Positions 113 to 50,873 of a DNA stretch of 51,144 nucleotides are shown piece after piece. The notes under the pieces are model-generated. The model made no database searches and was not told where the DNA came from. It was given only the letters and a program-made list of their open reading frames with translations. The translations under genes were made by a program, and so were the position numbers. Source of the DNA: an archaeon (GTDB lineage Archaea; AGJL01; Methanococci; Methanococcales; Methanocaldococcaceae). Positions within the stretch are counted from its first letter, which is position 1. Every line of letters starts with the position of its first letter. Where the stretch lies: NCBI GenBank assembly GCA_024278985.1, contig JAJRSC010000003.1, forward strand, positions 1 to 51,144. Direction: 5' to 3'.

Positions 113-3100
113 GTTAAAATCAGACCGTTACGGTATGGAAATTTGAAACTAATATGTAAAAATCTAAATCATCTGGACATGTTAAAATCAGACCGTTACG
201 GTATGGAAATTGGATTTTTTTATAAAATATTTTAAAATCTTTAAATCATACACTAGTTAAAATCAGACCGTTACGGTATGGAAATAATTTTTAATGAAAA
301 GACTCCTGAATTAGATAATTTGTTAAAATCAGACCGTTACGGTATGGAAATAAAAAAAACTGATGGTAATGTAGCAATAAAAAATAGGGTTAAAATCAGA
401 CCGTTACGGTATGGAAATCACACACGCATTTAACCCACTGTTTTTTGTACTTTCAGTTAAAATCAGACCGTTACGGTATGGAAATTTTAATCTCTAAATT
501 TGTTAATGATGAAAAATTACAAGGTTAAAATCAGACCGTTACGGTATGGAAATTATATTTAGACAGTGTAGTTTTACCAGCAAAATGAGGAGTTAAAATC
601 AGACCGTTACGGTATGGAAATTCATTATCGATCTCTTTAAATGTTCTCATTAACTCAGTTAAAATCAGACCGTTACGGTATGGAAATGTAGATTTTAACA
701 TAAAATTGCAAATATCAGATAAGTTAAAATCAGACCGTTACGGTATGGAAATCTGATTATAGTGATAAAAGTTCATCATCAAGCAGTGTGTTAAAATCAG
801 ACCGTTACGGTATGGAAATACATAGCTCTTTTTTTTATGCATAAAATTGTTTAAATAGTTAAAATCAGACCGTTACGGTATGGAAATATTTGTTATTTTA
901 TTATTTTTAATTTTATTTTCTAAGTTAAAATCAGACCGTTACGGTATGGAAATATTTTTGAAATAATCTCATCAGTATATTTTCTTTTGTTAAAATCAGA
1001 CCGTTACGGTATGGAAATGGGGATTTAGAATGTGTTTTAACTGTTGGAGCATATGGTTAAAATCAGACCGTTACGGTATGGAAATTCCTTATGCAATGGT
1101 TGGAAAAGAAAATGGATTTAGGCAGTTAAAATCAGACCGTTACGGTATGGAAATATGGTATGATACAAATGCAAAATTGCTAAAATTCTATGGTTAAAAT
1201 CAGACCGTTACGGTATGGAAATTTTATTTTCAAATAATTATAAATAAACGGCAGACAAGTTAAAATCAGACCGTTACGGTATGGAAATACAAAATAACAG
1301 GAGTATATGTAACTGATGACAATATAGAACTAGTTAAAATCAGACCGTTACGGTATGGAAATTTTTTTCATTTTTTTCTTTTTTAATTTGACGTTTAAGT
1401 TAAAATCAGACCGTTACGGTATGGAAATAAATCTGATAAAAAAACTGAGGAGGATAAAGATAAATCGTTAAAATCAGACCGTTACGGTATGGAAATGCTA
1501 CTGCAGCAGTTGAAAAGTAATTCTTACCAATTAGTTAAAATCAGACCGTTACGGTATGGAAATAGATCAAATGTTAAAATCTCATCACTTTTATTTTGTG
1601 TTAAAATCAGACCGTTACGGTATGGAAATAATAACATAAATGAGTTTTTATTATATGCTCTAGCAGTGTTAAAATCAGACCGTTACGGTATGGAAATTAA
1701 TAACATTTCCATATATATCACTTGCACTTTTTACAATTTTGTTAAAATCAGACCGTTACGGTATGGAAATAATCTATATTTAGCATTTTTACTTGATTCA
1801 GTTGAATATAAACCGTTAAAATCAGACCGTTACGGTATGGAAATAACTTCACTGGACATAACCCAGCTGATTTCTTACATAGTTAAAATCAGACCGTTAC
1901 GGTATGGAAATATAATTTTCAGTATCAAGCTCTTTTATTTTATTATATGTTAAAATCAGACCGTTACGGTATGGAAATGGGGGTGTGTCTGACGACACAA
2001 GGGTGCTTAGAATAGTTAAAATCAGACCGTTACGGTATGGAAATAGAGACATATTTACTAAATTTATATTACCAATATTAGTTAAAATCAGACCGTTACG
2101 GTATGGAAATGCTGGTTTTTCTGGGGTTATTGAAAGTAACATTGGGTTAAAATCAGACCGTTACGGTATGGAAATGTTATTTTATCTTTGACAATATATC
2201 CTCCAGTATTTGTTAAAATCAGACCGTTACGGTATGGAAATTAATGAGAATGAGATTTAAGTATTAAGGATTAAGAATGTTAAAATCAGACCGTTACGGT
2301 ATGGAAATCTGAAAAACTTTTTCAAAATTCAAGTGAGTTGTGATGAGTTAAAATCAGACCGTTACGGTATGTAAATTTTTTAGATGTTATGAGGCCAGGA
2401 TTAGTACTATTATGTTAAAATCAGACCGTTACGGTATGGAAATGCTTTTCTTAATTTTTCAATTTCTTCAAGAATCTTGAATGTTAAAATCAGACCGTTA
2501 CGGTATGGAAATATACTTTCTTGTGGATTCAAGGAACCTGGAAGCTATATACGTTAAAATCAGACCGTTACGGTATGGAAATCAATAAATTCAATACTAT
2601 CAAATCTTCAGTTCGATGCAAATAGTTAAAATCAGACCGTTACGGTATGGAAATTCAGAATTAACAATATTGTTTGATGAAGATAAAATAAGTTAAAATC
2701 AGACCGTTACGGTATGGAAATATGTCTTCTTTTATTTTTTTCTTAAAATCTTCATCTTGTTAAAATCAGACCGTTACGGTATGGAAATTTTTTTTCTATT
2801 GTTGAAGTTATTATTTTGTACAGCAGTTAAAATCAGACCGTTACGGTATGGAAATAGGTCCCCACACATAGCCTTATTTACAAAATATTTTAAAAGTTAA
2901 AATCAGACCGTTACGGTATGGAAATTTTTCTATTATTTTATTAATTGTTTTCTCTATGTTTTTGTTAAAATCAGACCGTTACGGTATGGAAATAAGATGT
3001 CCGTCTTTTATAATAATGTTTTTGATTAAAAGTTAAAATCAGACCGTTACGGTATGGAAATAAACTTAACATTTAATATAATTATCAAAAGTTATATGTT

Positions 3101-3344
3101 AAAATCAGACCGTTACGGTATGGAAATAAAAAGACCAAATTTTGCCAATTTTGCCCAAATAAGACCAAATAGTTAAAATCAGACCGTTACGGTATGGAAA
3201 TAACATATGAATTTCTACCAGATTTTGATTTTCCATTAGTTAAAATCAGACCGTTACGGTATGGAAATTTTTATTGTTCTTTATGTTTTCTTTTTTGTTC
3301 AATTGAATAAAAAAGTTAAAATCAGACCGTTGCGGTATGGAAAC
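113..3344 (+). CRISPR. CRISPR array, 48 repeats of 30 bp and 47 spacers
   Basis: I count 48 copies of a 30-bp direct repeat that begins GTTAAAATCAGACCG and ends TTACGGTATGGAAAT, with period 65-76 bp and spacers of 35-46 bp. All copies read identically except the one at 2347 (G to T at repeat position 26) and the last at 3315 (A to G at position 18, T to C at position 30). A degenerate last repeat marks the leader-distal end, so the leader is on the left and transcription runs rightward. The ATGGAAAT 3' end agrees, because Cas6-type 5' handles resemble AUUGAAAN. ACCG-TTA-CGGT inside the repeat can fold into a short hairpin. No cas gene is present in the window. The spacers differ from one another and I could not identify targets. 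Short open frames across the array are artefacts of the repeat. Confidence 0.98.
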
Positions 3345-3350
3345 TTTTTT

Positions 3351-3385
3351 CTAACAACGTTAGGATTTAAAGACCTTTCTTTTTT
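3351..3385 (+). terminator. Possible terminator just after the CRISPR array
   Basis: Seven bases after the last repeat, CTAAC-AAC-GTTAG can form a 5-bp hairpin, followed by an AT stretch ending in a run of T at 3380-3385. This would stop the pre-crRNA before carA. The stem is short, so this is tentative. Archaea can also terminate on T-tracts alone. Confidence 0.35.
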
Positions 3386-38405: not shown

Positions 38406-39826
38406 AATATCCCAAAGAGTTTTGTGACATTGGGAATTTTTTCAATTACTTCCAATGGAGTATAATTAAATCCCTTCTCTTTTAGTAATAAATCTCCTGC
38501 ATATCCAATTATAAAAGCTGAACAGCATGCTGATAAAAATGCTTCATTTTTAGTAAATAATGCCCCTGTTAATCCTGCTAATATATCCCCTGTCCCTCCT
38601 TTAGTTAATCCTGAGTTTCCAGTTTTATTAATTTTTATTTTTTCATAGTTAAATATTATATCATATCTTCCTTTTAAAAGTATTGTTGATTTTAAATTTT
38701 TAAGATTATACTTTATATATTCATATTCTTTTTTATGTGGAGTAAAGATAAATCTATCCTCAAAATTGAAATTATCATAATTAATAAGTTTTATAGCATC
38801 TGCATCAATAACTACCTTCTTACTATATCTCTTTAAAAATTCATTAACAAATTTTTTAGTTTCATTATTCAATCCTAAACCATTTCCTAAAACAACAACA
38901 TCATATTTTTCAGCTATTTCTAAAATATCATCAATATAATCAACAGATAAATATTTCTCCCCAACTTTATAATATATAAATTCTGGATGATTTGCTTTTT
39001 TTGTAACTTCCTTAACAGATAAAATTCCAACAATATCAACAAATTTTAAAGCACTTAGTCCTGCTAATATTGGAGCTCCATAAAACTCTCTACTTCCTCC
39101 AATAATTAAAACCTTACCATTTTTTCCTTTATACTCTCCCCTTTTTTTATTTAATGCCCTTAAATCACCAAATCCAACAATATACTCAGCTAACTTAGGA
39201 ATTCCAATATCTTTAACTATTGGTTCCTTTTTATTAATTGTTTTTTTCTTATGGAATGTTATAGTTAAATCACTTTTCAAATTTCCAGTTTCAACATCTA
39301 CACTTACAATAAATAAATTTTTATTCTTCTCTTTAGCTTTGTTTAATTTCTCTACAATTGTTTTAAATGGCTCTCTTAGTTCTCCTCTAACACCAGTTCC
39401 AAGCATAGCATCAACAACTAAAACCTTATCTTTTTCAATAATCTTAAAAATATCTTCCTTTATTTCTCTACCTTCAATAATATTAATAACTCCAAACTCA
39501 GCCAAATTTTTTAATATTCTAAAATTTTCTCTTGCTTCATATTATTTTATTTCTTCCTCTTTTCCCAAGAGAATAACTGTTCCTCTCTGTAAGAATCTTG
39601 CAACTACAAAACCATCTCCACCATTGTTTCCTGTTCCACAAAAAATAAATATTTTTCCATTAAAATCTTTAATTTCATCATAAACTGCTTTTCCAGCATT
39701 TTCCATTAATTGTAGTTTTGAAATTCCAAGATATTCAGCATTATCATCAATAATAGTCATCTCTTCTGGGGTAATAACCTCTCTTTCCTTAATTTTACTT
39801 TTTAGTTCATTAAATAAGTCCATCAT
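38402..39826 (-). pseudogene. nnr: Bifunctional NAD(P)H-hydrate epimerase/dehydratase, interrupted by in-frame TAA
   Basis: Nnr repairs hydrated NAD(P)H: the N-terminal YjeF_N domain is the epimerase and the C-terminal domain the ADP/ATP-dependent dehydratase. The N-terminal piece (39826-39542) has EEMTIIDDNAEYLGISKLQLMENAG and CGTGNNGGDGFVVAR. After GKEEEIK comes TAA at 39542-39544, then the same frame continues YEARENFRILKNL, VVDAMLGTGVRGELREPF, and the dehydratase with VLIIGGSREFYGAP, TPHKKEY and SGLTKGGTGDILAGLTGALF. The segment SVDVETGNLKSDLTITFH is shorter than the usual SVD-x-P-S-G-x-D-A-D-T-G stretch, so a small deletion may add to the damage. The downstream piece could restart at TTG 39505. 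Confidence 0.85.
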
Positions 39827-41149
39827 TTTCCATCTCCTTTATTACTTTTTTTACTAATTCTCTACCTTTGTCCAATAGATATTTAGCAAGTTCTTTATTT
39901 TTTGCTTCTACTCTTATCCTAATATAAGGCTCTGTTCCAGAAGGCCTTATTAATATCCAACCATCTTCTAAGTCAAATCTTGCCCCATCAACTGTTTCAG
40001 GCGGTACTTTAAAAATTTTTTCTCCTTCTTCTATTACTCTTTCCATTACTTTAGATTTTAAAAACTCCTCACAATGTACTTTATCCCTAATATTTATATA
40101 ACTTGGTATTTTATCAATAAGAGAACTTATTGGAGAATCATAAAATTCTAACATTTCTAAAATTCTTAATCCACTTAATATTCCATCAGGTGTTAAGTGA
40201 ATATCCCCATGTATCCAGGTTCCACTTGGCTCTCCTCCAAATTTTGCATTTACCTTCTCCATCTTTTCAGCTACAGCAACATCTCCAACTCTTGTCCTAT
40301 ATATCTTAACATTCAAATCTTCTAAATATCTATCTAAAATTATAGAAGCATCTACAGTTGTAACAATTTTTTTTATATTGTATTTCTCAGCTAAAAATCT
40401 ACAAAATAAAGCTAATAATTTATCAAAATCTACAAATCTACCTTTTTCATCTATTACTCCAATTCTATCAGCATCTCCATCATGAACTAACCCTATCCAA
40501 CCCAATGATTTAACAATTTTTATAGTCTCTAAAAGATAATTTTTATCTGGTTCTGGAATTCTAAAAAATTTACCATCAATATGAGCATTTATAGATAAAC
40601 TCTATTACCAAGTAAATTTAATAACTTTGGAGAGACCAAAGAACCTGCTCCATTTGCAGTATCTAAAATAACATTAAAATTTTTATTTAAATCAATATTG
40701 TTTAATATAAACTCAATATATCTTTTTATTGCCTGATTATCATTATAATATTCTCCAACATTTTCCCAATTTACTGGAAAATCTTTGTTTATATTGTCTT
40801 CTATTTCTCTTTCTTGATTTTTATTAAAAGCAATTCCATTTTTATTAAAAAGTTTAATTCCATTGTATTCTGGAGGGTTATGTGAAGCAGTTATCATAAC
40901 TCCAACATTATAATATCTTGTATTAAATCCTAAAACAGGAGTAGGAACTATTCCAGTTATTATACTATTTCCACCACTTTGTAATATTCCAGACACTAAT
41001 GAACTCTCTAACATCTTCCCTGTTGTTCTTGTGTCTCTTCCTATAACAACATCCTTAAATTTTTCTCCTAATACTAACCCTACTTTATAGGCAATTTTTG
41101 GAGGTAGATTCTTTAATCTTATCCCAGAAGTTCCAAAGAGTTTTATCAC
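39810..41149 (-). pseudogene. glmM: Phosphoglucosamine mutase, frameshifted
   Basis: GlmM converts glucosamine-6-P to glucosamine-1-P for UDP-GlcNAc. The 5' frame (to 40589) has KLFGTSGIR, VIGRDTRTTGKM and the phosphoserine loop TASHNPPEYNGIK. It stops after GNRVYL. The 3' frame, shifted by one base near 40592-40600, continues INAHIDGKFFRIPEPD, the metal loop DGDADRIGV, GGEPSGTW and the phosphate loop RPSGTEPYIRI. One added base near TTTATCTATAAA would join them. I start at GTG 41149, which overlaps the upstream stop (GTGA) and has GAGAGGT upstream. A sugar-phosphate mutase of this type is expected to be important, so a sequence error is quite possible. Confidence 0.88.
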
Positions 41150-42591
41150 TTTATCATACCTCTCTCTTTTTGCCATTTAATTCTTAAATTTAATATACAT
41201 GGTCCTCCTCTATTTCCACCAATTGGAACCTTTGGAGTTCCTAAACAGTTCATACATCTTGCCATTACAGATGCCCCTAACGCTAAACCATCCTCTACAA
41301 ATACAACATTCTCCTCAACCTTATCCCAAATATTTAATTCTTTTAATTTTTCTATTATAATCTCTGGTTTTTTTCCAGAAATTCCAGCTCTTCCAGTTAT
41401 ACCCAATGCTGTTTTTTTAGTTATTAAATTTTTATCTTTAGCCAATTTTACCAATCTATATACAACATCAGCCATAACATAATCAAGACATAAAAGTAGA
41501 GTAGAGATATTACTTTTTTCTACTAACTCCTTACCCAATTCAGTTAATTTATAAAGTTTATCTCCATTGTTTCCAACATCACAGCCTAATAATGTAGTTC
41601 CTGCTTTCTTAGCTGCTTCAGTATCTACTGGAACAGTTCCAAATCTTTTAACACCATCAGGCACTTCATCAATAGTAATATACTTATGTATTTTTTCAGC
41701 ATATTCTTTAGCAATTTTTTCATTTGCTTTTCCATCTGGTTTTAAATCTAATACTGCTCCAGTTTTTTTATCAATCTTTCCAGAACCTCTCGCAATACTA
41801 TCAGCAATAGCTCCGGCTAATCCACATAAGTTACCTATAACTTTAGCATATGGTAGCGAGTCGTTGGTTATTCTGCCTGCTAAAGTTGTCCCAAAATCAA
41901 TACTCATGCAAGGATTTCTAAAATCTACAAAAGTCCATTTACTACCAACTTTAATTCCAGCAGTAACAAGTTCTCCCTCCATTTCATTAGCAACAACTTC
42001 CTTTCCAGTAGGTGGAAGAACACCAGTAACAGCTCCATCAAAGATAATTTTATCTAAAAAAGAATATTTATCAAATGGTTTAGGTAGTTGTTCCTTAGTC
42101 ATTGCTGGAGTCATCTTATTAGGAGGAACTCCTGCAAGCATACAACCCTGAGCTAAAGCAATAATAACCTCAGAAACTTCTTCAGGAGAAGCAAATCCAG
42201 CAGTAACTCCAGTACTTCTAACAACAAAATGTAAATCATCAACTGTTAATCCAGCTTTTTTTAAACTCTCTAATAGAACATCCCTAACCATTTCTGCAAC
42301 TGCCTCTCTTGATAACTCAACTCCCCATAATGTTTTACCAAAAACTTTTTCTCCTTTCTTAGGTTTTCTAACATCTCTTGTCATTCTAACATACTTACTA
42401 ATAATATATGTCCTTCCTGTGTCCATATTTGTAGCCGTTATAATGGATTTTGTTGTTGTATTCCCTAACTCCACAGAAGCAACAATATAGTAAGGGTTCT
42501 TTTTTAGTTCTAATAAATCAACCTTTTGAGACTTAGCATATGCTATATTAGGTTTCTTTTTAAATAAATTCTTCAAAAAATCAAAAACCAT
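41146..42591 (-). CDS. Methanogenesis marker protein 14 (ASKHA-like)
   Basis: A 481-residue soluble protein matching, as I recall it, the methanogenesis marker 14 family found in methanogens. It has two ASKHA-type phosphate loops, VASVELGNTTTKSII and SIDFGTTLAGRI, like the activator proteins that reductively activate corrinoid enzymes. Cys clusters occur at NPCMSIDFG, GNLCGLAGA and ARCMNCLGTP (residues about 450-460). The function is unknown; a link to cofactor activation is inferred from the fold. It is the first gene of the operon with glmM, nnr and the PHP gene, and the only one of the four that is intact. Confidence 0.8.
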   Translation of the reverse strand: MVFDFLKNLFKKKPNIAYAKSQKVDLLELKKNPYYIVASVELGNTTTKSIITATNMDTGRTYIISKYVRMTRDVRKPKKGEKVFGKTLWGVELSREAVAEMVRDVLLESLKKAGLTVDDLHFVVRSTGVTAGFASPEEVSEVIIALAQGCMLAGVPPNKMTPAMTKEQLPKPFDKYSFLDKIIFDGAVTGVLPPTGKEVVANEMEGELVTAGIKVGSKWTFVDFRNPCMSIDFGTTLAGRITNDSLPYAKVIGNLCGLAGAIADSIARGSGKIDKKTGAVLDLKPDGKANEKIAKEYAEKIHKYITIDEVPDGVKRFGTVPVDTEAAKKAGTTLLGCDVGNNGDKLYKLTELGKELVEKSNISTLLLCLDYVMADVVYRLVKLAKDKNLITKKTALGITGRAGISGKKPEIIIEKLKELNIWDKVEENVVFVEDGLALGASVMARCMNCLGTPKVPIGGNRGGPCILNLRIKWQKERGMIK

Positions 42592-42667: not shown

Positions 42668-43423
42668 TCAATCAATTGGGACAACTATTGGAATACCTTT
42701 TATATTTTCAATATATACCTCAACACCATAAACTGCTTTAATATTCTCAGGAGTTATTATCTCTTTTCCACCTTCTGCATATATAAATCCATCCTTAAGC
42801 ATAATAAATTTATCAGAATATCTTAAAGCTAAATTTAAGTCATGCATAACCATAATTACAGTAATATTTTGAGAATAAGATATATTTTTAATTATTTTCA
42901 TAACCTCTAATTGATTTTTTAAATCTAAGTTATTTGTTGGTTCATCTAATAATAAAATTTCAGGTTCTTGAACTAAAGCCCATGCTATTACAACCTTTTG
43001 TAACTCTCCACCACTTAATTCATTTGTATATCTAAAGGCATATTCTTCTAATCTCAATAACTTTAAAACTTTTTCAGCAATTTTAATATCTCTTTCAGTT
43101 ATGTCAAATTTAATATATGGCTTTCTTTCCAATAAAATGTAATCAAAAACTGTTAAATAGTTCCCACTAAACTTTTGTGGAACATATGCAAGTTTTTTGG
43201 CTAAAGTTAGATTATCCAACTCCTCAATATTATATTTATCTATTAATATAACTCCTTTTTTAGGTTTTAAAATTTTGTTAATGCATTTTAATAATGTAGA
43301 TTTTCCAGCTCCATTAACACCTAAAATAGAAACAACTTCTCCTCTATTTACTTTAAAAGTAATGTTATTAAGTATTTTTCTGCTTTTATAATAAAACTCA
43401 ATGCCATTAACTGATAAAATCAT
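42668..43423 (-). CDS. ABC transporter ATPase for metal chelate (FecE/BtuD type)
   Basis: The 251-residue ATPase powers the importer encoded by the two genes upstream. Walker A is [11 protein letters not shown], the Q-loop YVPQKFSG, the signature LSGGELQKV, Walker [14 protein letters not shown], and the switch His in [10 protein letters not shown]. The [11 protein letters not shown] segment is usual for siderophore/cobamide uptake ATPases. The start is 6 bases after the permease stop. Substrate (iron chelate, cobamide or other metal complex) cannot be told from the ATPase. Confidence 0.94.
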
Positions 43424-43429
43424 AAATAA

Positions 43430-44464
43430 TCACTTATATATTTTAATTAAAAGATAAATAAGCATTGGAGCTCCTAAAAATGATGTTATTATTCCAACAG
43501 GCAATACTACAGGAGATATTATTGTTCTTGAGACAATATCAGAACATAACAAAAGAACAGCTCCAAATAATGAAGATAATGGTATTAAAAATCTATAATC
43601 TCCCCCTATTACCATTCTAACTATATGGGGACTAATTAACCCAACAAATCCAATAATTCCTAAAAAAGCAACATTTACAGATACTAATATAGAACTAATA
43701 AGCATAGATATTAATCTTAATCTATATATATCCACCCCTAACGACTTAGCCACTTCATCTCCACTTTCAAGAGCATTAAAATCCCATCTCTTATGCATAA
43801 AATAAACAAATGAAAATAATAATACTACAAATATAATATAAAGTTCATTCCAGTTTATTCTACCTAAGTCTCCAAAACTCCAAGCTACAATCATTGCAAG
43901 TTTTAATTCATCAGCAAAATATTGAATAGTCATAGTTCCAGCAGTAAATAATGAACTTATTGCAACTCCTGCCAAAATCATGGCTTCAGGTGTGAAGTTT
44001 CTTAACTTTGATAAAATTAAAATAATCTTAACACTTATCAAACTTCCCAGAAATGCAAAAATAGTTATAATATAGGGATTATTTATAATTATTTCATTTT
44101 TAATATCTCCAAAACCTAATAATAATATGGCTAATGCTGCTCCAAACATTGCTCCATGAGATATACCTAAAGTAAATGGACTTGCTAATGGATTTCTTAA
44201 AATACATTGCATTACTGCTCCAGATATTGATAAGGAAATTCCTGCAAGTATAGCTGCTAAAACTCTTGGTAATCTTATGTTCCATACAACAACTTTAGTT
44301 GTATCATTTCCCAATCCAAAAAGAGCTTCTATAACCTTACTAAAACTAATATTATAGTCTCCAATAGATATTCCTAAAATTGAAAAAAATATTAAAAATA
44401 TTATCAGTATAATCCCAAAAATGATTTTTTTGTAAATATAGTATTTATATTTTTTTAGTAGCAT
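43430..44464 (-). CDS. ABC transporter permease, FecCD/BtuC family
   Basis: A 344-residue membrane protein with about nine or ten helices. Family motifs include VVWNIRLPRVLAAILAGISLSISGAVMQ (residues about 60-87), NPLASPFTLGISHGAMFGAALA, and the ATPase-contact region FVGLISPHIVRMVIGGDYR. It forms the channel of a BtuC2D2-type importer. It lies 12 bases after the methyltransferase and 6 bases before the ATPase, so it is translated with both. Confidence 0.94.
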   Translation of the reverse strand: MLLKKYKYYIYKKIIFGIILIIFLIFFSILGISIGDYNISFSKVIEALFGLGNDTTKVVVWNIRLPRVLAAILAGISLSISGAVMQCILRNPLASPFTLGISHGAMFGAALAILLLGFGDIKNEIIINNPYIITIFAFLGSLISVKIILILSKLRNFTPEAMILAGVAISSLFTAGTMTIQYFADELKLAMIVAWSFGDLGRINWNELYIIFVVLLFSFVYFMHKRWDFNALESGDEVAKSLGVDIYRLRLISMLISSILVSVNVAFLGIIGFVGLISPHIVRMVIGGDYRFLIPLSSLFGAVLLLCSDIVSRTIISPVVLPVGIITSFLGAPMLIYLLIKIYK

Positions 44465-44476
44465 AAAATCACTTTA

Positions 44477-45505
44477 TTATACTTTTTTAGCAATAATCAT
44501 TTTTGTGTCTTTATGTAAATCAATCTTTGTTATATTTTTAACATCAACTACTTCCAATATTTCAAAACCCAAATATTTTAAATATTCTATGTAATTATTT
44601 AAATCTAAATCATCTTTAAATGTATATCTATATTTTCCTTTATTTATATTGTCAAATTTAAAAAAATTCCATTCCATATTGTTTATTAAATCCTCTAAGG
44701 ATTTGTTTTCAAAATAAAAGCACTGTTTATTAATATATAAACCTCCAGGATTTAAAGAATTATAAATTTTTTTAGCTATCTCTTTATTTTTTCCTCCTGG
44801 ATTATAAGATGAAAATACAATATCATACCCTTTACCAATATCATCTTTAAAAAAGTTTCCTTTCAAAGTAAAAACATTTTTTGCATTGTATTCTTTAATA
44901 TACTTTTTTGTTTCTTCTATAACTTCAGGTAAGTCAAAAACATAACATTTTAAATTTTTATTTAGCTTACTAAATGCTATAGCATAAAGTCCATGACCTC
45001 CTCCTAAATCTAACATTTTTCTGGCTTTTTTAATTTCATCAAATTTTAATAAATAACTTACTATTTTGTCAAGTTCTAAAATTTTACATTCAATAGCCAT
45101 TTTTTTAATAATTTTTAAAAATATTTTATTGCAGTTATATTTTGGTGATTTTAATATATCTTTTAAATTTTTCCAATATTCTATTTTTTCATAATAATCA
45201 TCAAAATGAAGGACTAAATTAAAATCTGATGATTTATTAATATATTTAGATAGTTCTAATGCTTTATAATACTTTACACCAGAATGTTCAGTTCTGTCTA
45301 AAAGATGAAGTTCTGATAAAATATCTAATAAATACTCTAAGAGGGTTTCATCATAGTTTAAAATTTTTGCTAATTCATTAACACTTTTATAGTCATCTAA
45401 ATAAGAAAAAATATTTATATCAATAACAGTTTTTAAAAGATAAAATAATCTTGTTTTTGTATATAATTCATCAAAAAAATTTAATAAGTCATTTATATCT
45501 TTCAT
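44477..45505 (-). CDS. SAM-dependent methyltransferase inside the transporter operon
   Basis: A 342-residue protein with the architecture of plant-type O-methyltransferases. An N-terminal winged-helix dimerisation domain (about residues 1-95; VNELAKILNYDETLLEYLLDIL) is followed by a Rossmann methyltransferase domain with motif I LDLGGGHGLYAIAFSKL and the acidic strand CYVFDLPEVIEETKKYI. It sits between the binding-protein gene (26 bases) and the permease (12 bases), so it is produced with the importer. A role in modifying the imported ligand or a metallophore is inferred; the substrate is unknown. Confidence 0.85.
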   Translation of the reverse strand: MKDINDLLNFFDELYTKTRLFYLLKTVIDINIFSYLDDYKSVNELAKILNYDETLLEYLLDILSELHLLDRTEHSGVKYYKALELSKYINKSSDFNLVLHFDDYYEKIEYWKNLKDILKSPKYNCNKIFLKIIKKMAIECKILELDKIVSYLLKFDEIKKARKMLDLGGGHGLYAIAFSKLNKNLKCYVFDLPEVIEETKKYIKEYNAKNVFTLKGNFFKDDIGKGYDIVFSSYNPGGKNKEIAKKIYNSLNPGGLYINKQCFYFENKSLEDLINNMEWNFFKFDNINKGKYRYTFKDDLDLNNYIEYLKYLGFEILEVVDVKNITKIDLHKDTKMIIAKKV

Positions 45506-45531: not shown

Positions 45532-46632
45532 TTAACTAAAATTAAGTTTTTTAAATCCTCCCCAAAAGTTGGCCATTTCTTTATAAACTGGTTTTCCTAC
45601 TAAGAAAATATAAATTTCATCTGCTTTTTCTTCTGGATTTATATCTTTAAACCTTTCTGGATATAGAACTTTCCCAATATAGTAAGCATCTGCTAAGGCA
45701 GTTCCAATATTGGTATTATAGAAGTTGTAAGGTAATAATCCATAAACATTTCCAGTTTTAAATGCCTTTAATGATTCATAAAATTCTTTATTTTTCTTAT
45801 AATCTTCTATAACTAACTTTAATCCCCCTTCATCAATAAATATAATATCAGGATTCCATTCTAATAGTTGTTCTTTAGAGATAGTTACATGTCCAGTTTT
45901 GTTTAGTGAAGATGCAACATTTTTAGCATTTACAGCTCTAAATGGTGGATAATCTGCTATAGTACTTTCAATACCTCTCTGTCCTTTATAACCTACTCCC
46001 CCAACATAAACAGATGGTTTTTTATTGTCAGGAATATCTTTTGTTCTTTCAGATAGATTTTTTAATGTTTTATTTATAAAGTTAATAACATCTTTAGCTC
46101 TTTTTTCTTTCCCTAATATTTTTCCTGCTAATTCTATAGATTTAAATAGTTTATAGTCATTAAAATTTCCCAATGTTCCATAATCTAATAATACAACAGG
46201 AATTCCAATTTTTTTCTGTATTTCATCTGCATCTTCAGGTGGTATATTAATAGCAAAAATTACATCTGGATGAACTTTTAATATTGCCTCTAAGTTAGGT
46301 TTTGGACTTGGACCTCCTTGGCCAATTGTCGGAAGATTTGCTAATTCAGGATGTGCTAATCTATACGGTCTTCCATAAGGAATCCATTTTTTCTCGGCAT
46401 CTTCAACACCAACAACTTTATCTGTTGCATTTAAATATACAATTAATCTTAAACATCCGGGACCTAAACATACAATTCTATTTACGTCCTTTGGAATTTC
46501 AACAGTTCTTCCATATAAATCGGTTATAGTTATAGTTTTAGACTTTTCATTATGTTCGGTTGTTGTATTTATACATCCACAAAATCCGATAATAAATAAT
46601 ATCATTACTAATCCAAAGAATTTTTTTAACAC
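45532..46632 (-). CDS. ABC transporter substrate-binding lipoprotein (metal chelate)
   Basis: The 366-residue class III binding protein captures the ligand outside the cell. The signal peptide ends in lipobox FCGC, with Cys20 as the lipid anchor. Typical elements are [24 protein letters not shown], a helix backbone, and [16 protein letters not shown] and [14 protein letters not shown] as the two 'NPDV/ID' segments. First gene of the four-gene operon (binding protein, methyltransferase, permease, ATPase). Its upstream region has repeated ATTACTTA motifs that may be an operator. Confidence 0.93.
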
Positions 46633-46648
46633 GATACCACCTTATTAT

Positions 46649-46695
46649 ATTACTTATTATTAAATATTACTTAAATAATACTTATATATTACTTA
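46649..46695 (-). promoter_or_regulatory. Repeated ATTACTTA motif upstream of the transporter operon
   Basis: Three exact copies of ATTACTTA (TAAGTAAT on the transcribed strand) lie at 46649-46656, 46666-46673 and 46688-46695, spaced 17 and 22 bases apart, 17-63 bases upstream of the binding-protein start. A fourth is at 46782-46789, at the end of the gap. Related ATACTTA/TAAGTA words fill the interval. The cluster could be a binding site for a metal-dependent repressor; it also overlaps the likely TATA region. Confidence 0.4.
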
Positions 46696-46786
46696 TTATG
46701 ATAAATTAAGTTTTAAGTAAGAAATAAAATATAAGTATAATTACTAAGATTAATTAAAATAATAAAATAATATAATACTTAATTAC

Positions 46787-48244
46787 TTATGATTTTTCTC
46801 CATGTTTTTCTAACCATTCATTTAATATTCTATCCCAGTTTTTCCTTAAAAATTCACCAACTTGAGAGGAATCTCTTGTTCCAACTACACAAGTCCATCC
46901 AGTTTTATCTTCAATATCTCCTCTTGTTGAAGCAGCTAATGCTGGGAGTATTATAATTCTATGTTTAACCTTATCTGCTATTCCAGTCTCTTCAATTAAT
47001 TTTTTAGCATTCTCTCCATTATATTGTCCTCCAGCAACAGAAACATCAACAGCCTTACCTCCAGTATCCATAACTAATAACCAACATGTTACATTATCTT
47101 TCTCAAAGTCCCCAGTAACTGTATAGAATGTTAATGAGAAATTAGTAGTTAGTATAACTGGACTATATTCATCAGGATTACCTATTGGATATAATCCTGG
47201 CTCAACTGCTTGTGGTTTTCTTGGGTCTGTATAAATTGCCTGTCTTAATGTTAAAACTGGCATTAACTCCCAAATGTCATAATTATGTAATATTAAAGCA
47301 TCTGCATATCTATTTATTAAAGCTGCTGCAATAGTTGCCTCAAACATTTTAGCAGCATCTTCTTTTTTAGAGATAAATTTCTCCATAGGACAACCATATT
47401 GTAGAGCATAATAATATGCCTTTATTGGTAAATTTAATATTGGAAATCCAAGATATTTATCACTTCTTTCTATTGCTGCTCTTCTAATAATAACATTATA
47501 ATCTAAGGTTTCAGCAATATTTTCAGGATAAGTATGTGGTTCTAAAACAATATCTTCAATATCATTAGCCAGACATTTAGCAGCCATATTTCTTAAATCT
47601 TTAATATTATTGGAAGATAACACTAAAGCAGCATCTTTATTTTTTAAATTTTTTAATATTTTTATAAAATCATTTAATGTCTCTTTTGTTGCAGCATATA
47701 TTAATGGTTTTGAGTTTATAACTTTAAGGGCTTCCTCAATAACCTTAGGATTTAAAGATGCCAAGGCAATGGGCATTTTTGTTTCATTTTCAACAATTTC
47801 AATGGCTTTTTTAAATTTTTCCACATCTCCAGATGCATTTCTTATAACAATAAAATCAAGTTTTAATTTTTCTCCAGTTCTCTCAAATTCAAATTTTTCT
47901 ATATCTTTAGCCCTTTTCTTAATTTCCTCTTCATCCAAGTTATCAGATATGTCAATTCCTATAGCTGTTGGATTAAAAAATGTTTTTTCATATCTATACA
48001 TTACTTCTTCTCCACCTAATAAAACTCTTCTTGTAGAATTTCCAAACCAAACTTCTTTAACTGGTGGAGAAATTAATTCTAAAAGTTTCTTTTTATTTTC
48101 AGGTTTAATAACAGGACATTTGTCAATACTTTCCTCTCTCTCTAATAGTTTTGTGGCAAAAGCCATACATGATGGATATCCACATCTCTTACAATTTACT
48201 TTTGGAAGAAGTTTATATATATCCATTACATTGACTTTTTTCAA
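46787..48244 (-). CDS. cdhE: Acetyl-CoA decarbonylase/synthase gamma subunit (corrinoid iron-sulfur protein large subunit)
   Basis: CdhE carries the corrinoid and a low-potential [4Fe-4S] cluster that pass the methyl group between tetrahydrosarcinapterin and the acetyl-CoA synthase subunit. The cluster motif is NCKRCGYPSCMAFATK followed by DKCPV (four Cys). The TIM barrel and C-terminal cobalamin domain follow, with VEPGLYPIGNPDEYSPVILTT (positions about 365-385) and LPALAASTRGDIED. I place the start at TTG 48244, 4 bases after AGGTGA, giving about 485 residues; the in-frame TTG at 48268 precedes that ribosome site. It is 8 bases after cdhD. Confidence 0.94.
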   Translation of the reverse strand: MKKVNVMDIYKLLPKVNCKRCGYPSCMAFATKLLEREESIDKCPVIKPENKKKLLELISPPVKEVWFGNSTRRVLLGGEEVMYRYEKTFFNPTAIGIDISDNLDEEEIKKRAKDIEKFEFERTGEKLKLDFIVIRNASGDVEKFKKAIEIVENETKMPIALASLNPKVIEEALKVINSKPLIYAATKETLNDFIKILKNLKNKDAALVLSSNNIKDLRNMAAKCLANDIEDIVLEPHTYPENIAETLDYNVIIRRAAIERSDKYLGFPILNLPIKAYYYALQYGCPMEKFISKKEDAAKMFEATIAAALINRYADALILHNYDIWELMPVLTLRQAIYTDPRKPQAVEPGLYPIGNPDEYSPVILTTNFSLTFYTVTGDFEKDNVTCWLLVMDTGGKAVDVSVAGGQYNGENAKKLIEETGIADKVKHRIIILPALAASTRGDIEDKTGWTCVVGTRDSSQVGEFLRKNWDRILNEWLEKHGEKS

Positions 48245-48252
48245 ACTCTCAC

Positions 48253-49431
48253 CTAAGCAATTATCCAATCATAGTTATTTAATTTAACTTTAACATCTCC
48301 AAATTTTGAAGTAAGAGTTCTACCAATTTCTTTAAGTGTTTTAACTGCTATTGGATTTAACATCATAAACATATCTACACCTGAGAGGAGCATAGTTAAT
48401 CCAGTAGTTATTTCCCAAAGTGGTAATCTATACTCTCTTGGACCCCATTCTTCTTTTTTCATCCATGCCTCTCTTGCACCATTAGCATTGGTTGTTCCTG
48501 AAGACATTGGCATATTAACTAATTCATCTCCCTTTAATCCACTTAATCTCAACCTTGTCATTGCATTTATTGAAAACTCTATTCCATATCCCAATGCACA
48601 TGTTGTTGGGTCCATAACTATTCTATTAGGGTCTAAACCTGCAGAAATAAGTTTTCTATTTAATTCCTTAGCCATATTTGGGTCCATAATAGACCATGCT
48701 AAAACATTATGGTCATATTTCATAGCAGCATCTACAATTTTTTTATAGTCCAGTTCTAAGTTTGCAGAAGCTAATAGACATCTATCTCCTTCACAAACTT
48801 CTGCACATGCTGCTAAAACTAATGGGTCTTTATCAGGATTTCCACTACCACCTATAACAAATGGAACCTTTACAGCTTGCATTAAATCTTCCATTAGTTT
48901 AGCAGCTTCTCTTGGTGAAGTGTCTTTAATTTTTGGGTCTGTTGAAATATGGTGAATAGTTATCATATCTGCCTCAAACTCTTTAACACATTTTTTAGCC
49001 CATTCACATGGGTCTTCCATAACATCCTCAAAGTATTGTTTAACTGGTTTTGGTAGGTTGTGAAGAGGAATATCAAAAATATCAAAAGTTACAACTGGTG
49101 GATTTGGATAAGGTTCTTCAAATCTATACAATGCTCTCTGCCCACCAACTTTAACAACAACCCCTCTACCACCTTCACTTTTTGGCTTACCAAATTGAAC
49201 CTCTCTAATTCTTCCAGGATATTTTTCAATTGGTAATTCAAAGTCCATCTCTGGGACTTCTTTAATTATAATCTCTTCCTCAGCCATTTTTTGCTTAACC
49301 TTTTGAGTTAAGGGCATCTTTATATAACCTGTTGGAACATTTATTATTAATTCATCAGCTTTAATGATTAAGTTGTTTATTTCAATACCTCCAGTTTTTT
49401 CAAGAATTTTAAGTAATTTATCTATATCCAT
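48253..49431 (-). CDS. cdhD: Acetyl-CoA decarbonylase/synthase delta subunit
   Basis: CdhD is the 392-residue small partner of CdhE in the corrinoid protein that feeds methyl groups to acetyl-CoA synthesis. Family motifs include GGRGVVVKVGGQRALYRFEEP, PFVIGGSGNPDKDPLVL, VLAWSIMDPN, NRIVMDPTTCALGYGIEFS and the C-terminal LLSGVDMFMMLNPIAVKTL. The start ATG has GGTGAAAT upstream. The two genes are not accompanied by cdhA, cdhB or cdhC; M. jannaschii likewise has separate clusters. Confidence 0.95.
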   Translation of the reverse strand: MDIDKLLKILEKTGGIEINNLIIKADELIINVPTGYIKMPLTQKVKQKMAEEEIIIKEVPEMDFELPIEKYPGRIREVQFGKPKSEGGRGVVVKVGGQRALYRFEEPYPNPPVVTFDIFDIPLHNLPKPVKQYFEDVMEDPCEWAKKCVKEFEADMITIHHISTDPKIKDTSPREAAKLMEDLMQAVKVPFVIGGSGNPDKDPLVLAACAEVCEGDRCLLASANLELDYKKIVDAAMKYDHNVLAWSIMDPNMAKELNRKLISAGLDPNRIVMDPTTCALGYGIEFSINAMTRLRLSGLKGDELVNMPMSSGTTNANGAREAWMKKEEWGPREYRLPLWEITTGLTMLLSGVDMFMMLNPIAVKTLKEIGRTLTSKFGDVKVKLNNYDWIIA

Positions 49432-49700: not shown

Positions 49701-50873
49701 ATGATGTTAGGAACTCCTCTTTTAAAGGGTAGTGTAAAATTTTTGTTATTGGGAAGTGGTGAGTTAGGAAAAGAGGTTGTTATAGAAGCTCAAAGGTTAG
49801 GAATTGAGTGTATAGCAGTAGATAGGTATCAAAATGCCCCTGCTATGCAGGTTGCTCATAAAAGCTATGTTATTGATATGAAAGATTATGATGCATTGAT
49901 GGCAATTATTGAAAGGGAAGAGCCTGATTATATTGTTCCTGAAATTGAAGCAATAAACACAGATGCATTAATAGATGCTGAAAAATCTGGATATAAAGTT
50001 ATTCCAACAGCTGAAACAACAAAAATAACAATGAATAGAGAGTTGATAAGAAGATTAGCAGCTGAAAAATTAAAATTAAAAACTGCTAATTATGCTTTTG
50101 CAGATTCTTTGGAAGAGTTAAAGGTAGCAGTTGAAAAAATTGGTTTTCCATGTGTTGTAAAACCAATTATGTCCTCATCTGGAAAGGGGCAGAGTGTGGT
50201 TAGAAGTGAGAAAGATATTGAGAAAGCCTGGAAGATAGCCAAGGAAGGAGCAAGAGGGTTAGGGAATAGAGTTATTGTAGAGGAGTTTATAAACTTTGAT
50301 TATGAAATAACCTTATTAACTGCAAGAACTTCTGAAGGAACTAAGTTTTGTGAGCCAATAGGGCATATATAAATAGATGGAGATTACCATGAGAGCTGGC
50401 AACCTCATAATATGTCTGTAGAATTAAAAAAACAGGCTCAAGAAATAGCTAAGAAGATTACAGATGCATTAGGAGGATATGGAATTTTTGGGGTTGAGTT
50501 GTTTATTAAAGGGGATGAGGTTATATTTAGTGAAGTTTCGCCAAGACCTCACGATACAGGAATGGTTACAATGATAACTCAAGAGATGAGTGAATTCGAA
50601 ATTCATGTTAGGGCTATTTTAGGGTTACCAGTATCTACAAAACTTATTCATCCAGGGGCAAGTCATGTAATAAAAGCAGAGATAAATAAATATGCTCCAA
50701 AATATCATAATATAGAGGAGGCTTTAAAAGTTCCAAATACTAAGTGGAGATTATTTGGTAAGCCAAATGCAAAAGTTGGTAGAAGAATGGGGGTTGCTTT
50801 AGCCTATGCTGATTCTGTAGAGAAAGCAAGAGAACTCGCTGAAAGATGTGCTCATGCAGTTAAAATTGAATAA
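49701..50873 (+). pseudogene. purT: Formate-dependent phosphoribosylglycinamide formyltransferase, interrupted by in-frame TAA
   Basis: PurT uses formate and ATP to formylate GAR in purine synthesis, a folate-free route suited to methanogens. The reading frame covers about 390 residues and is in a single phase throughout. The ATP-grasp parts are [46 protein letters not shown], then CEPIGHI followed by TAA at 50370-50372, then [32 protein letters not shown] and [13 protein letters not shown]. In homologs such as E. coli PurT the interrupted position is Gln (GHRQEDGDY), so one C to T change in CAA explains it. GGTGA precedes the ATG. Mutation or a sequencing error are both possible. Confidence 0.9.

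Follow-up and report, generated by a model that had tools for sequence, protein, structure and literature searches.

A COMT-like methyltransferase family encoded beside metal importers in methanogenic archaea and beyond: a candidate for metal-ligand chemistry

Methanogens and acetogens have a high demand for nickel, iron and cobalt, metals that precipitate in sulfidic waters. The acquisition of metals by methanogens is an open question that has been raised for iron and sulfur (PMC10846266, PMC9431491). The locus described here adds a narrower one: why is a methyltransferase encoded in the middle of a gene set for a metal-chelate importer? It lies in a stretch of 51,144 nucleotides, called the window throughout this text (contig JAJRSC010000003.1 of assembly GCA_024278985.1), from a member of the Methanocaldococcaceae, by its sequences a likely Methanocaldococcus, whose draft genome (1.1 Mb, 30 contigs, 86% complete) carries three FecCD permeases and a single copy of the methyltransferase (MT). 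The features concerned are the following.

42668-43423, minus strand: ABC ATPase of the Fec/Btu/heme importer type (Pfam ABC_tran, 1.1e-31)
43430-44464, minus strand: FecCD-family permease (Pfam FecCD, 3.1e-96)
44477-45505, minus strand: SAM-dependent methyltransferase (MT) with a COMT-like fold, 342 amino acids, ATG start, intact ORF
45532-46632, minus strand: substrate-binding protein (BP; Pfam Peripla_BP_2, 1.4e-27)
46633-46786, no strand assigned: A+T-rich intergenic stretch of 154 bases 5' of BP, a possible promoter or leader
46787-48268, minus strand: CdhE, gamma (corrinoid Fe-S) subunit of CODH/ACS, the same-strand upstream neighbour
48253-49431, minus strand: CdhD, delta subunit of CODH/ACS, a further neighbour of the operon

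The operon and its methyltransferase

On the minus strand the genes follow one another in the order BP, MT, FecCD permease and ATPase, with gaps of 26, 12 and 6 bases, and judged from this layout they are read as a single operon. The first-pass annotation had placed the MT ORF between BP and permease with the first two of these gaps, and this is exactly what is found. All the parts of a FecCD importer, namely permease, Peripla_BP_2 protein and ABC ATPase, are encoded in the same operon. BP carries a lipoprotein-type signal, as read from its sequence, and its closest solved structure is 2etv, annotated as an iron(III) ABC transporter binding protein, which we take to be TM0189 of Thermotoga maritima. 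In these three components the operon resembles BtuCDF, FecBCD and FhuBCD; unlike them, it reaches no curated equivalog cut-off and has the MT gene inside it. CODH/ACS is a nickel and corrinoid enzyme system, and cdhE is regarded as a neighbour of the four genes that may or may not belong to their operon. No common operator was recognised in the regions upstream of BP, where only A+T-rich strings were seen, and no CooC gene adjoins the window operon.

Elsewhere in the window, a CRISPR array occupies positions 113-3370 (repeat GTTAAAATCAGACCGTTACGGTATGGAAAT, spacing about 65-75 bases, more than 40 copies). A phosphomannomutase-like gene and a PurT-like gene (39810-41176 and 49701-50873) are each split in two ORFs, which suggests either frameshifts from sequencing or real decay.

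The first-pass annotation had read an O-methyltransferase architecture in the enzyme and taken it to suggest a small-molecule substrate, and the two halves of this description fare differently. Pfam assigns Methyltransf_2 (3.8e-13) and an O-methyltransferase dimerisation domain (3.3e-6), with PF08100 at 27.3 bits (cut-off 25.6) and PF00891 at 49.7 bits (cut-off 22.3), so that both domains are present; a Pfam scan at E 0.001 gave methyltransferase families only and no nicotianamine synthase domain. The predicted structure, modelled on the relative from locus L011 that forms the first row of the family alignment (pLDDT 90), matches COMT-like enzymes over the whole length (Foldseek E about 1e-20), among them ASMT, 3mcz, MfnG, RedM, SibL, DsyB, PhzM and BchU. 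The methyl acceptors of these enzymes are O, N, S or C atoms. With ASMT (4a6d), 3mcz, 2r3s, MfnG (7ux6), DsyB (7wdq) and BchU (1x19) the family shares the dimerisation and Rossmann domains, the SAM loop and the whole-length fold, at an identity of about 15-20%. In the window protein the SAM loop LDLGGGHGLY ends at Y174 and is followed by SYNPGGK (233-239) and EWN (278-280). Across the family the GGHGLY loop is invariant and the W of [ED]WN nearly so; the EWN motif, the invariant HGLY and the metal-importer neighbours all set the family apart from COMT-like enzymes. Where O-methyltransferases have HDW with its catalytic His, the family shows a conserved N-P-G-G-K (N235 in 81 and P236 in 89 of the 94 rows). 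The small-molecule fold therefore stands, whereas methyl transfer to oxygen is doubtful and not established. A likeness of the N-P motif to motif IV of some N-methyltransferases is only a hint.

Conservation of the pairing

Among 14 species of the genus, eight including that of the window carry MT, the other seven copies being 51-57% identical to the window protein. Seven of these eight have MT placed between BP and the permease ortholog. In the eighth (G002, locus L013) it adjoins BP, and a 4.5-kb insertion encoding an S-layer-like protein, a binding-protein fragment and a DUF364 protein precedes the permease. No MT was found beside any other FecCD permease of the MT-carrying genomes of the genus, and since MT keeps to one permease throughout, the pairing is more than chance. 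Not every genome has the full set. Genome G001 lacks MT and still has CooC, BP, permease and ATPase, with a 410-base gap in which no MT remnant was detected; MT is thus not always needed, and this organism may rely on a ligand produced by its neighbours. In G007 BP is broken, and in G005 a BP-ATPase remnant is left. G005 and G009 retain CooC and the flanking genes that they have in common with G004, and no importer genes were found at the CooC site of either.

Far from being restricted to the source genome, which the first-pass annotation had named as grounds for rejecting its proposal, MT occurs in 23 of 36 Methanococcales genomes (E <= 1e-8), in each case adjoining BP and/or permease genes, and it extends beyond the order. 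This conserved pairing strongly supports the functional tie of MT to the importer that the first-pass annotation had proposed from gene spacing. In Methanococcus the cluster is expanded, with two MT and five BP genes in G015, four and five in G018, and three and five in G019; the cluster of G020, a relative of G018 and G019, has one of each. Such joint multiplication of MT and BP paralogues is the expected outcome if the set of ligands diversified. In G018-G020 the permease lies outside the cluster; its neighbours in G018 and G020 are an additional BP and an FmdE protein. The G014 cluster also contains a second, small methyltransferase. It aligns along its whole length (1.2e-142) with PDB 3dlc, in which the putative SAM-dependent methyltransferase MMP1179 of Methanococcus maripaludis was solved (PMC5289526).

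Two further genes were noted at MT loci. A single ORF in a Methanococcus MT/BP cluster (L107:2119-3873, minus strand) fuses an AmmeMemoRadiSam-like radical SAM protein to Peripla_BP_2, and a NifH-type nitrogenase-reductase-like gene (L016:6174-6995, minus strand) is inserted between an importer permease and ATPase. The latter was considered as CfbC of F430 synthesis; it scores 356 bits against a CfbC cut-off of 402 and barely passes the nifH cut-off (397.5 versus 394), and for this reason it was dropped as evidence for F430.

Searched with the window protein alone, the genome collection gave no matches; with the family alignment 213 relatives were recovered, of which 80 were kept. The four-gene order, which had been singled out for comparison across methanogens, is widely kept, being found also in Methanobrevibacter, in Methanoregula and Methanolinea (Methanomicrobiales), and in Methanomassiliicoccales, Thermoplasmatota and Bathyarchaeota, but it is not universal: besides G001, the Archaeoglobi have MT at the end (BP, permease, ATPase, MT) or preceding BP. 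In Desulfomonilaceae and Desulfoluna the genes of the module are clustered in differing orders. Over the 36 loci with MT, BP and permease, distances between MTs correlate with those between permeases (Mantel r = 0.92), and those between BPs with permeases likewise (r = 0.84); none of 2000 shuffles was as high. These correlations measure co-inheritance, to which shared species history contributes, and not function. Bacterial relatives at two loci lie in long runs of genes that hold several additional class I methyltransferases. The run at L134:1942-12093 also encodes an FAD oxidoreductase and a radical SAM protein, that at L182:252-14336 two Opp-type importers, and these are possible larger ligand-synthesis clusters.

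Importer classes and companion genes

The MT family is associated with more than one kind of importer. On a tree of 94 MTs, 49 stand beside a Fec-type importer, 12 beside an Opp/Nik-type and 10 beside a Znu/ABC-3-type, so that 71 adjoin one of the three classes; 19 have no recognised importer nearby and four are at the edge of a contig. The importer classes form clusters in this tree, and well-supported branches force several changes of class. In an HMM check of representative binding proteins and permeases, those binding proteins that belong to the Opp group scored best with nickel NikA, Opp5A-NikA and CntA-like models, all below the cut-offs, and representative proteins of the Znu group showed ZnuA and ABC-3 domains. 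The common denominator of the three classes is metal transport. The usual substrate of Znu-type binding proteins is a bare ion, and this makes these loci a poor fit to a metallophore.

CooC is the nickel-insertion ATPase of CO dehydrogenase, and a CooC-type ATPase (best PDB match CooC 3kje, 2.5e-27) is encoded no more than 8 kb from 13 of the MTs, at loci that cover all three importer classes. This count includes L120 and leaves out a weak match at L197; a merged cluster of 21 loci, which also held FmdE and TrmO through fusion proteins, came to 13 after splitting. The hosts belong to Methanococcales, Methanosarcinaceae, Archaeoglobi, Bathyarchaeota, Thermoplasmatota and Methanomassiliicoccales and include two Desulfotomaculum-like bacteria, and several of the loci are arranged as CooC, BP, MT, permease and ATPase. 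Nine module-linked homologues, all from related loci and none from the window, have both the P-loop and the CxC metal site; like CooC they are P-loop ATPases with 3kje as best match, and unlike CooC they are grouped with importer and MT and not in a CODH operon. FmdE and TrmO proteins recur in the MT metal modules too, and fusions occur: TrmO_N-CooC directly precedes MT at L143:6289-7530, and TrmO_N-FmdE adjoins the module at L130:3971-5068. Taken together, the NikA/Opp-type and Znu-type importers and CooC point to nickel. None of these links had been foreseen by the first-pass annotation.

Further companions belong to nickel or corrinoid biochemistry, the CODH/ACS genes of the window among them. 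In the Methanocaldococcus genomes G002 and G004 the cluster lies downstream of mcr and has a NikR_C-domain regulator at its other side; this second, divergent and weaker NikR_C protein beside mcr (L012:982-1362, minus strand; L013:16075-16452, plus strand) may control mcr rather than the importer. G001 and G007 have a similar NikR_C match near their clusters, and a stronger NikR lies elsewhere in these genomes. G013 has cobS upstream of the module. DtxR/MntR-family genes, which encode iron or manganese sensors and count against nickel, occur near six MT loci, and in some Methanococcus genomes sufBC, as read from the sequences, lies near the cluster, a proximity that favours iron there. An AmmeMemoRadiSam radical SAM gene often follows MT in Methanosarcina, directly so in some genomes. 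A CbiM/NikM-type transporter and NikR_C proteins are present in all 36 Methanococcales genomes; the MT module is therefore not the sole nickel route, and a comparison of MT-bearing and MT-lacking genomes for nickel transporters and NikR is uninformative.

Possible roles of the methyltransferase

A cytosolic small-molecule methyltransferase keeps company with a nickel chaperone and with three metal importers that are unrelated to one another, and the best explanation of this is a part in metal-ligand chemistry. A functional link between the family and metal import is very probable. That the enzyme acts on a small ligand carrying the metal is our preferred reading, with a probability of about 0.5, and nickel is the likeliest metal, at roughly even odds. 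According to this reading the four genes would form one transition-metal uptake module: outside the cell the lipoprotein BP would capture a metal in complex with a low-mass ligand, the complex would be imported by the FecCD permease and its ATPase, and the cytosolic MT would use SAM to methylate the ligand needed for uptake. The methylation step would either make or finish a metallophore, or edit the imported complex to free the metal. In related modules a CooC-type ATPase encoded alongside would then receive the nickel destined for CO dehydrogenase and other nickel enzymes. Synthesis appears slightly favoured over metal release, because MT and BP copies expand jointly and because the MT is common to importers whose binding proteins differ greatly. 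The original suggestion of a metallophore or an imported chelate as substrate is plausible; the pairing with the importer is conserved, while no further recognisable metallophore-synthesis genes recur beside MT.

Several other explanations have to be weighed against ligand methylation. The module could serve an iron and not a nickel chelate under DtxR-type repressors, the CooC links then reflecting general metal homeostasis. The Fec-type importer, the iron annotation of the nearest solved relative of BP, and the nearby DtxR/MntR and sufBC genes would suit such a system, which we regard as possible but doubtful: CooC recurs with all three importer classes, and the Opp-type binding proteins score best, below cut-off, with nickel NikA models. 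Salvage of a tetrapyrrole (corrinoid, heme or F430-like), with MT modifying the macrocycle, draws on the best matches of the permease to BtuC models and of the ATPase to heme/B12-type models, all under the curated cut-offs, on the weak BchU match of MT, and on cobS in G013 and mcr in G002 and G004. It is nevertheless unlikely, as the family also stands beside NikA-type and Znu-type importers, the latter not being tetrapyrrole importers, the best BtuC model gives 227 bits where the equivalog cut-off is 334, and MT occurs in lineages presumed to lack MCR. Archaeoglobales and Sporomusa are not expected to have this enzyme.

The target might instead be a protein, such as an MCR residue, CooC or a metallochaperone, with co-transcription merely coupling MT to the metal supply. 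S-methylcysteine methyltransferases for MCR are known, and mcr neighbours the cluster in some Methanocaldococcus; yet fold and domains are those of the small-molecule COMT class, some hosts of the family are not expected to possess MCR, and MT copies multiply jointly with extracellular binding proteins, all of which makes a protein target rather improbable. As for an accidental pairing in the source genome, for which nothing speaks beyond the single window, the conservation across Methanococcales and many phyla and the correlation of 0.92 between MT and permease leave it a negligible chance.

Metal-ligand methylation has partial analogs among known systems. Staphylopine/Cnt and NikA-type importers likewise combine ABC import of metal chelates with SAM-using enzymes that make the ligand, and they are the systems whose models, as described above, the MT-paired Opp-type binding proteins approach below cut-off. 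The window importer differs from this Opp family in being of the FecCD type, and its neighbourhood showed neither nicotianamine-synthase-like nor opine dehydrogenase genes. DUF364 (Dhaf4260) enzymes, encoded beside metal ABC transporters, have been proposed from genome context as makers of flavin-, pterin- or siderophore-like chelators (PMC2954201); they differ from MT in fold, the passages of that paper concerning them give no account of the MT family, and one DUF364 protein is present in the L013 cluster. In the open-licence literature we found no description of the MT family or its importer pairing, though closed literature may differ, no report of a methanogen metallophore, and, in papers on the proteomics of methanogen iron sources, no data that can be linked to the MT cluster.

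A broader scenario, tentative at this stage and rather doubtful, is a metallophore pathway of strict anaerobes in which a single step by a dedicated methyltransferase family would make or finish a small nickel ligand, interchangeable Fec-, Nik/Opp- and Znu-type importers would take it up and hand the metal on to CooC, and the duplications in Methanococcus would have given rise to differing ligands and receptors. If true, this would be, to our knowledge, the first metallophore of methanogenic archaea. The pairing could also help to name the substrates of many importers that are annotated only as "iron ABC transporter", and the methyltransferase family, found repeatedly with metal importers of unrelated kinds and with a nickel chaperone, offers, in the tractable genus Methanococcus, a candidate ready for knock-out.
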